From Actinomycetota bacterium (GTDB lineage Bacteria > Actinomycetota > Actinomycetes > Nanopelagicales > Nanopelagicaceae): a stretch of 64,000 nt of DNA. Below are positions 1 through 27,655 of the stretch, piece by piece. The stretch covers positions 1 through 64,000 of the forward strand of contig WLIT01000003.1 of assembly GCA_009726125.1 (NCBI GenBank), read 5' to 3'. The position numbers were made by a program, and so were the translations under genes. Each line of letters opens with the position of its first letter. Within the stretch, counting starts at the first letter, position 1. Below the pieces are notes generated by a model that searched no databases, was not told the origin of the DNA, and was given only the letters and a program-made list of their open reading frames with translations.

Positions 1-220
1 CACCATCGTCAAGTGAGCTCTCTAGCGACGCTAACATCCAAGCCGAGAGCACTCTTGGGTTAACGGATTCACTTAAATCGCTTAGGCAGCGATAGCGAAA
101 TCAGTGCGATTTGCATCTGCACTTATGTTTTGCGCGGGTTTCATGGTTTACGAGATCATCCCGGCTTCCTCGGCCCGCTTCACCTGACTCAACACCTAAA
201 GTCGAGACCGTTCACCCCCA
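1..220 (-). ncRNA. ssrA: tmRNA (partial; 3' part lies beyond the left edge)
   Basis: Reverse complement begins GGGGGTGAACGGTCTCGACTTT, the typical tmRNA 5' end. It contains a tag frame GCA GAT GCA AAT CGC ACT GAT TTC GCT ATC GCT GCC TAA (ADANRTDFAIAA*), at 82-120, and lies next to smpB. Confidence 0.93.
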
Positions 221-25245: not shown

Positions 25246-25593
25246 CTAGCTAGCTAGCTGCACTTTTTCCTTTTCGAGCGCATTTATTCGTGGTCGGCCA
25301 GCAGTGCGCTTTGCTTGAATAACTTTGCCATCCTCGAATAACTCACCACCCCAAATGCCGCAGGGTTCAGCGCGAGATAACGCACCTTCTAAACACTTGG
25401 CGCGCATTGGGCATTCACCACACAAAGCCTTGGCATAGGAAATCTCGGCTGGGCTCTCGGCGAAGAAGATTTCTGGATCTGCCTGATGGCAGGGAAGCTT
25501 CGTTGCTGAATCCGCAAAGGCGGTCACACCAATCTTTGCATCTGGGCCTTCGGCCCATCCGGGTACTAATAGTTCGCTGAAGAGAACAGTCAC
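25246..25593 (-). CDS. whiB7: WhiB7-like transcription factor (Fe-S, AT-hook)
   Basis: Four Cys (LPC, LCGECPMRAKC), GIWGGE turn, C-terminal AT-hook RTAGRPR; next to uvrD2-nudC-adnBA as in mycobacteria. GTG at 25593 is 8 nt after GGAGG; the supplied ORF start at 25602 overlaps the SD. Confidence 0.9.
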   Translation of the reverse strand: MTVLFSELLVPGWAEGPDAKIGVTAFADSATKLPCHQADPEIFFAESPAEISYAKALCGECPMRAKCLEGALSRAEPCGIWGGELFEDGKVIQAKRTAGRPRINALEKEKVQLAS

Positions 25594-25679
25594 TGTTCTC
25601 ACCTCCGTCTTTTCTAGGTTTGGCTTTCTCTTGTTGGGTTAGTTGGTTAGTTAGTTGGGTTAGTTCTTTGGACTAGGAA

Positions 25680-25720
25680 AAGCAAAAGGGCCGCGAATCC
25701 TTTGAAAGGATTTGCGGCCC
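25680..25720 (-). terminator. Intrinsic terminator / candidate whiB7 attenuator
   Basis: RNA GGGCCGCAAAUCCUUUCAAAGGAUUCGCGGCCC then UUUUGCUUUU; 20 nt after the stop of the 73-aa ORF and upstream of whiB7. Confidence 0.85.
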
Positions 25721-25739
25721 TGGGGCTTTTAACTATCGA

Positions 25740-25961
25740 TTAGCCGATAGTGCTCCAGGATCCGCTCTTTGCAAAGGCTGCATTGGTTGCATAATTAGCA
25801 GCGAAGGCAAAGCGCTTATGTGTTGATGGCTTGTTAGTAGCTGTATTAGCTGCTGCCCCAACGAAAGATTTGCGCCAAGTGTTTGATACTGCTGAAACAG
25901 CAGAATTAGACGCAGCGGCTATACCGCGAGCGCCTGTAACTTGAGCGAATCGTTGTGACAT
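25740..25961 (-). CDS. 73-aa Ala/Ser/Thr/Asn-rich ORF, candidate whiB7 leader uORF
   Basis: ATG 7 nt downstream of a -10-like TACCCT, no Shine-Dalgarno (leaderless configuration); followed by an intrinsic terminator. Confidence 0.55.
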   Translation of the reverse strand: MSQRFAQVTGARGIAAASNSAVSAVSNTWRKSFVGAAANTATNKPSTHKRFAFAANYATNAAFAKSGSWSTIG

Positions 25962-25968
25962 GTAGAGA

Positions 25969-26010
25969 AGGGTAACTCACGCCACAATGGCGACGCAAGT
26001 TAATTAAATT
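25969..26010 (-). promoter_or_regulatory. Candidate whiB7 (auto)promoter: AT-rich block + TTGCGT (-35) + 18 bp + TACCCT (-10)
   Basis: Minus strand AATTTAATTAAC-TTGCGT-N18-TACCCT-N7-ATG; the AT-rich block touches the -35, as in WhiB7-dependent promoters. Confidence 0.55.
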
Positions 26011-27655
26011 AGAGAATCCCCTGCAAGAAGGGGCTGGGGCTTCCTGAATATGAGAGATGAAGTTCGCTCTTTGCCCGCGTAAGGCCCACATAAAAGAGCC
26101 TGCGCTCCTCTTCAACATCGTTTCCCATCGGCAGGACGCCATCGCTAACGCCGGCTAAAAAGACGTGGTCCCACTCCAAACCTTTTGCGGCGTGAAGGGT
26201 TGAAAGCACTACACCGGGCAGGGTTGGTGGATTGTTCTGTTCGGCCCGATCCTCAAGTTCACGAAGATAAGTTCGTAAGGTTGGAGCGCCATCTTCCTGC
26301 ATCGACTTACCCAGGCCAAGGAAGGCGTGAACATAATCCGTCTCTCCAAATGGGCGCAGAACATCTACTAAATCGATATACCAGTTGCCGCCTTCACTTG
26401 GCAGAACTGATGCACTGCGAATAACGCGCATCGCATCTCGCACATCAATTCGCTCGAAGAATTTCTCGGAACTCTTAATTTGAGAGTCAATTCCTGCAGC
26501 GCGGAGTTCACGCTCGAAAATATCTAATTGCGCATTTGTTCTAGTTAAAATCGCAACTTCAACTCGGTCGCCAGATTTTGCGCGAAGTTCAGCAATTTTC
26601 TTGGCGATGAAATTCGCTTCGCTAGCGTTTGAATCGAATTTTGCAATCTCTGGTTTGGCGCCATGTTCATTCATCGACGCTAACTCGTGACCATGCTCGC
26701 CAATCATTCCGCCTTGACGCAAAATTGCATTTGCAGTTCCAATAATTTCTGGAGTAGAACGATAGCCGCGAGATAGCCGGATTACTTGGGCTTTAGGAAA
26801 GCGCTTGGTAAATCCAAGTAAGAATGAGGAGCTCGCACCAGCGAAGGAATAGATTGTTTGAGCAGCATCGCCCACAACGCAAATATCTTCGCGATTACCA
26901 AGCCATAAGTTAAGCAGACGTTGTTGCAACGGTGAAACATCCTGGTATTCATCAACCGTGAAGTAACGGTATTGGTCACGAATTCGCTCTCGAACATCGC
27001 GATCTTCTTCCAACATACCAACTGTAAGGAGAAGAACATCTTCAAAGTCAATTGCACGCTCTTGTTGTTTCAAAGTTTCATATGCTTGATAAACCTTTGA
27101 GATATCTTCAAAATTTGCTTTATCTGGCTTATTGTTTGGAATTCTAAGGCTGCGTCCTGCGCCAAGAGCAGATTCAACATATTCATCTGGCGAAATTTCT
27201 AAGACTTTAGCCCACTCAATCTCACTTGCAATTTCCCGAAGCGTAGAAGTTTGTGGCGCTAGTGAAGCATCTGTACGAGTTAGCGCTTCAGCGATTGCGC
27301 CAGATTTCATCGTTAGAAGTGAGGGAAAGGCGCCACCAAATGAATAGGGCCAGAAATACATCAACTGCTTTATCGCAGCAGAGTGAAAAGTTCGAGCCGT
27401 TGCATTTGGGATTCCCAAACCGCGAAGGCGGGCGCGCATTTCACCAGCCGCTCGTGCAGTGAAAGTTAGGGCCAAAGTTTTGCTTGGGTCAGTAACTCCA
27501 ATTGCAATTGCATATGCGATGCGGTGGGTAATAACTCTGGTCTTGCCGGTTCCGGCTCCTGCAATTACACATACTGGGCCACGAACTGCGGTAACAACTT
27601 CACGTTGCTCGGGATCTAGGGCCTCAAGTATCTGATCTGCGCCTGCTGCAACCAT
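26009..27655 (-). CDS. uvrD2: UvrD/PcrA-type superfamily I DNA helicase (UvrD2-like)
   Basis: GAGTGKTRVITHRIAYAI, VDEYQDVSPLQQRL, VGDAAQTIYSFAGA, STLHAAKGLEWDHVF, LFYVGLTRA. Confidence 0.92.
   Translation of the reverse strand: MVAAGADQILEALDPEQREVVTAVRGPVCVIAGAGTGKTRVITHRIAYAIAIGVTDPSKTLALTFTARAAGEMRARLRGLGIPNATARTFHSAAIKQLMYFWPYSFGGAFPSLLTMKSGAIAEALTRTDASLAPQTSTLREIASEIEWAKVLEISPDEYVESALGAGRSLRIPNNKPDKANFEDISKVYQAYETLKQQERAIDFEDVLLLTVGMLEEDRDVRERIRDQYRYFTVDEYQDVSPLQQRLLNLWLGNREDICVVGDAAQTIYSFAGASSSFLLGFTKRFPKAQVIRLSRGYRSTPEIIGTANAILRQGGMIGEHGHELASMNEHGAKPEIAKFDSNASEANFIAKKIAELRAKSGDRVEVAILTRTNAQLDIFERELRAAGIDSQIKSSEKFFERIDVRDAMRVIRSASVLPSEGGNWYIDLVDVLRPFGETDYVHAFLGLGKSMQEDGAPTLRTYLRELEDRAEQNNPPTLPGVVLSTLHAAKGLEWDHVFLAGVSDGVLPMGNDVEEERRLFYVGLTRAKSELHLSYSGSPSPFLQGIL

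Follow-up and report, generated by a model that had tools for sequence, protein, structure and literature searches.

The leader that precedes whiB7 on the minus strand of the analysed window (the whole stretch of DNA, 64,000 nucleotides, to which all positions refer), from a freshwater actinobacterium with a small genome, is a translation sensor of the kind known from Mycobacterium and Streptomyces; the observation is real, and conservation of the leader is very strong. Comparison of leader sequences across the family makes it very probable that whiB7 is controlled by a ribosome-dependent, translation-sensing attenuation of transcription, together with autoactivation by WhiB7. The attenuation leader proposed in the earlier, sequence-only reading was borne out by the identity of WhiB7, the AT-rich box with its promoter, the coding upstream ORF (uORF), the covarying terminator and the covarying antiterminator. 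The whole architecture between uvrD2 and whiB7 was recovered in 79 non-identical leaders when they were aligned across relatives, as that reading had suggested.

The 360-nt leader folded with a z of -5.2, and 0 of 100 shuffles were as good. A covariance model, built from such leaders with this one included, scored it at E = 1.4e-19 in its own genome. A scanner for consensus promoters and terminators listed neither the whiB7 promoter nor the hairpin; the promoter has no close match to TTGACA/TATAAT and the terminator hairpin contains an internal mismatch. No Rfam family matched this leader. Elsewhere in the window, a partial tmRNA (RF00023) was observed at 1-219 (minus strand), running off the window start.

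Identification of WhiB7 and its translation start

whiB7 was placed at 25246-25593 (minus strand; 115 codons), with GTG 25593 as its probable start, based on Pfam, PDB and start-codon comparison. Its product matched the Pfam WhiB domain (E 9.9e-16), and the best PDB chain was Mtb WhiB7 (7kif, E 1.5e-25), with a lead of fifteen orders of magnitude over WhiB1 (7e-10). The alignment to Mtb WhiB7 extended past the WhiB domain through the C-terminal GRPR AT-hook. The genome encodes four WhiB proteins. The listed ORF (25602-25246, minus strand) opens with GTG 25602, an unlikely start because it overlaps the Shine-Dalgarno (SD) sequence GGAGG (GGAGGTGA, 25602-25606, minus strand). The codon equivalent to 25593 is ATG and GTG in 63/80 and 17/80 leaders, respectively, and the comparison thus points to GTG 25593, rather than 25602, as probably the true start. 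Low-complexity CCAACTAAC-type repeats were observed at 25620-25675, between the terminator and whiB7; across relatives, this A-rich spacer (44% A) shows only weak structure, and one of them (L033) carries several copies of the unit CCCGACTAGATAA there.

Promoter and AT-rich box

On the minus strand, the order of an AT-rich block, TTGCGT, an 18-nt spacer, TACCCT, 7 nt and ATG 25961 with no SD agreed with what had been read previously. The AT-rich box TAATTTAATTAA (26000-26011, minus strand) overlaps the uvrD2 stop codon and lies directly upstream of the -35 element TTGCGT (25993-25998, minus strand) of a primary-sigma promoter, whose -10 element is TACCCT (25969-25974, minus strand). The promoter was located by pattern in 69 of the 79 leaders, with spacers of 15 to 21 nt allowed. 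TTG was present in 69/69 as a part of the search pattern, while the following C and the spacer length were not fixed by it; the spacer was 18 nt and the -10 element TA[CT][CT]CT in all 69 (TTGC..-18-TAYYCT). The 10 nt before the -35 element were 90% A+T over these leaders, against a window background of 55%. In mycobacteria, the AT-hook of WhiB7 acts at an AT-rich box upstream of the -35 element (PMC3905903); by analogy, the box here, which sits at the place of that site, is a putative autoactivation site.

Coding constraint, length and composition of the uORF

The 73-codon uORF runs from ATG 25961 to TAA 25742-25740 (25740-25961, minus strand), the same coordinates as in the earlier reading. 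Within the genus, the pooled dN/dS was 0.48, as compared with 0.86 and 1.05 for the other two frames of the same alignment, and all the internal gaps in the alignment were multiples of three. The stretch between promoter and terminator is therefore under coding constraint and presumably translated. The last 14 codons showed zero synonymous differences within the genus, though some amino acids change; since amino acids vary there without any synonymous difference, the RNA of the uORF tail appears to be constrained. Over the uORF tail, another frame (25733-25861, ..RADPGALSANR) was also open in many relatives and is probably a by-product of the frozen RNA.

Coding constraint, followed by a strong terminator of the gene-end type, would also suit an independent gene for a small protein that ends in a terminator of its own, whiB7 being expressed from a separate promoter after that terminator. 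Such an arrangement is very improbable, because no sigma70-like promoter was found between terminator and whiB7 in any of the 79 leaders, and the last codons, frozen at synonymous sites, pair with the terminator. The sequence-only reading had named conservation as an independent protein away from whiB7 as evidence against an attenuator; the uORF protein was found only in the genus, beside whiB7 or at contig ends, and had no Pfam or NCBIfam match. Two weak matches outside the genus (E 0.003-0.005) were rejected as chance, the one lying within a 1205-codon open frame and the other containing stops.

The frozen tail bears in the same way on a sequence-specific arrest peptide, in which the C-terminal G[ST]WSxIG itself, rather than general slowing, would stall the ribosome. 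Many genera conserve this motif in the peptide, and uORFs of other families have W[SG]PPV ends. However, the uORFs of other members of the family end in GGSTR, GASIE, TPGGYIG or GSFE and still pair with the terminator, and the amino acid changes without synonymous ones within the genus point to the RNA; an arrest peptide is thus very unlikely.

The uORF had been described as much longer than that of mycobacteria, a claim that did not hold: the length in 45 family representatives was 47-81 codons (mean 60), in other families 43-71 codons or more (with uncertain starts) and in a Mycobacterium-like leader (L214, with a WhiB7 that shares 90% identity with the Mtb fragment) 45 codons, so that 73 codons is ordinary for the family and the class. 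The uORF contains 25% Ala, which exceeds all 1505 72-residue windows of neighbouring proteins, and lacks Asp, Glu, Leu and Cys; across the family, Ala averages 18.8% versus a background of 9.8%, with Asp and Glu about fivefold depleted, and the uORF of the Mycobacterium-like leader is also Ala-rich. According to the citing passages of PMC10727445 and PMC13236596, whiB7 of mycobacteria responds to alanine starvation, a response that the Ala-rich uORF fits by analogy. The uORF might then mainly sense a shortage of Ala (or Ala/Ser/Thr), with the antibiotic response being secondary, which would be a variant of the attenuation model and no alternative to it. This variant is possible but doubtful, in that the uORF has its alanines scattered along its length and lacks an Ala run just before the antiterminator, the low complexity may simply avoid structure, and many ribosome inhibitors trigger the published system.

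Probable leaderless start of the uORF

In this leader, ATG 25961 follows the -10 element by 7 nt and has no SD. The first in-frame ATG lies 6-9 nt after the -10 element with no SD in 40/69 leaders, including all the scorable ones from this genus, and in the other 29/69 the 5' leader is longer (17-79 nt), with an SD-like motif in 16 of these 29. GTG/TTG starts upstream of the -10 element in some relatives were rejected because they lie inside the promoter. Because the short distance from -10 to ATG is fixed in many relatives, there is good evidence that the uORF is leaderless, with its start codon predicted to form the 5' end of the transcript. A quick tree of the UvrD2 tail and WhiB7 requires at least four changes of the leaderless/leadered trait, a rough count since the tree has long branches. 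The main oddity of this system seems to be a sensor peptide whose translation would begin with the first nucleotide of the RNA.

Terminator and predicted antiterminator

The strong intrinsic (Rho-independent) terminator noted earlier between the uORF and whiB7 was confirmed as the hairpin AGGGCCGCAAATCCTTTCAAAGGATTCGCGGCCCT (25687-25721, minus strand; 15 pairs, -24.3 kcal/mol), which begins 18 nt past the uORF stop and is directly followed by the T-rich tail TTTTGCTTTT (25687-25678, minus strand). Nowhere else in the 64 kb of the window did this strand carry a hairpin of equal score. When the 45-row alignment was folded with RNAalifold, only 6 terminator pairs were returned, and therefore the named structures were counted instead. 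Over 45 dissimilar leaders, the covariation score of the terminator was 0.159 versus 0.113 for shuffled controls, and also went beyond slid controls.

The search for antiterminator pairing, likewise proposed earlier, was positive. An antiterminator (25714-25765, minus strand) made of overlapping uORF and terminator sequence is predicted in 79/79 leaders on the grounds of pairing, folding and covariation. Its 5' arm in the uORF tail (25765-25752, GCGGATCCTGGAGC) pairs with the terminator 5' arm (25726-25714, GCCCCAGGGCCGC), GCGGAUCCUGGAGC being joined to GCCCCAGGGCCGC around an apical hairpin (25751-25732, minus strand) that contains the uORF stop codon. The 36 nt before the uORF stop paired with the terminator 5' arm at a mean of -24.0 kcal/mol; mononucleotide shuffles gave -13.9, the mean weakened to -20.2 when tails were exchanged among species, and the tail was the best-pairing window of its own uORF in 78/79 leaders. 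Elsewhere in the class, 48 leaders from other families with the same layout gave a tail pairing of -25.4 versus -17.9 in this test, and the tail was best in 34. The antiterminator covariation score was 0.133, compared with 0.088 shuffled and at most 0.064 slid (45 dissimilar leaders); counted by column, the pairs are kept in only 69% of cells, since the position of the arms varies from clade to clade. As related leaders are not independent, these pooled statistics are optimistic.

In folding predictions, the antiterminator form reached -30.5 kcal/mol before the terminator 3' arm was transcribed, the finished leader RNA preferred the terminator form (-39.2 in total), and with a ribosome at the uORF stop only the terminator could form. 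Since the terminator form is the minimum of the finished RNA, read-through would need kinetic, co-transcriptional folding.

Proposed mechanism and possible targets

In the attenuation model, RNA polymerase would start with the A of ATG 25961 or with a base beside it, and the leaderless 5' end would be loaded with a ribosome. During normal translation, the ribosome reaching the stop would cover the antiterminator 5' arm (25765-25752) and block the antiterminator, so that the terminator (25721-25687) could fold and transcription would stop. When translation is inhibited, or slowed within the Ala-rich uORF, the uORF tail would be left free, the antiterminator could form and the polymerase would read through; the WhiB7 made would then boost its own promoter via the AT-rich box.

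The strict WhiB7-promoter pattern occurred in the genome at whiB7 and at two other places, which were rejected as WhiB7 promoters because both lie inside genes (purA and nadK by reading). A looser pattern gave 63 matches versus 39 for a reversed control, from which no regulon can be read. At L159:1501-1537 (plus strand), the whiB7-type promoter pattern was matched with one mismatch. The gene that follows 66 nt downstream resembles those for substrate-binding proteins of branched-chain amino acid ABC transporters; it is a possible WhiB7 target, by a match that is not significant on its own.

A bolder extension, which we regard as rather unlikely, is that the output of an attenuator driven by a leaderless uORF would also depend on leaderless (70S-type) initiation, the start mode having been switched at least four times in the family with promoter and terminator constant, and that WhiB7 in these streamlined genomes would perhaps have few targets beyond its own gene and serve mainly as an amino-acid/translation-stress switch.

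Distribution of the leader in the family

The order uvrD2-leader-whiB7 was found at 107 loci with 80 non-identical leaders; their sources are freshwater MAGs and genomes with labels such as Nanopelagicales and Planktophila. In Mycobacterium, too, uvrD2 is the neighbour of whiB7. The covariance model of uORF tail and terminator matched in 119/121 family genomes, in 76/76 near-complete ones and in 17/17 genera. The matches in G008 and G013 were weak and may be chance. In these two genomes and in G046, only a paralogous WhiB match was observed (best E about 1e-11), and whiB7 seems to be missing from these few family members or from their assemblies. As for further matches of the model in relatives, the three strongest of those inspected were rejected as ordinary gene-end terminators, and others are the palindrome read on the opposite strand. 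The whiB7 attenuator is hereby extended to the abundant freshwater actinobacteria of the Nanopelagicales type, where its near-universal retention among near-complete genomes survives strong genome reduction.

Comparison with known systems

Actinobacterial whiB7 genes typically have a uORF and a terminator upstream, and stalled ribosomes permit an antiterminator formed from overlapping uORF and terminator sequence (PMC10727445; PMC13393426, PMC11550727 and PMC4128351 agree in substance on whiB7 attenuation). What is new here is the lineage, the explicit antiterminator pairing and the leaderless form, the kind of attenuator itself being already known; among the papers covered by our literature search, none links Nanopelagicales with whiB7. 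The explicit antiterminator pairs can be tested, and the leaderless and SD-led forms of one attenuator provide a natural comparison.

Among the closest known systems is the whiB7 leader of Mycobacterium (M. tuberculosis, M. bovis, M. marinum, M. abscessus and M. smegmatis), which has the AT-box, SigA-type promoter, uORF, terminator and AT-hook WhiB7 in common with the present one. The distance from the transcription start site to whiB7 is about 350 nt in Mycobacterium (PMC4128351) and about 370 nt here, taken from the predicted start site. The Mycobacterium-like leader reads TTGTCA-18-TACCCT with an Ala-rich uORF; its 45 codons compare with 73 here, and the pairing letters differ. The mycobacterial uORF has a consensus SD before its start (PMC4128351), whereas the ATG here follows the -10 element at 7 nt with none. 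The Streptomyces wblC leader, as described in papers that cite Lee, Lee and Roe (2022), likewise has a uORF, a Rho-independent terminator and an antiterminator and responds both to inhibitors of the ribosome and to starvation for amino acids, but its C-terminal codons and terminator arms differ from those here. The attenuators of Streptomyces ABC-F genes, vmlR and msrD, which control resistance genes, also combine these three elements, with stalled ribosomes acting as the switch; unlike here, the controlled gene encodes a resistance ATPase and there is no WhiB7 autoactivation, and the Streptomyces ABC-F uORFs are very short (MLV, MVGDDDISG), as compared with the 73 codons of the present uORF.
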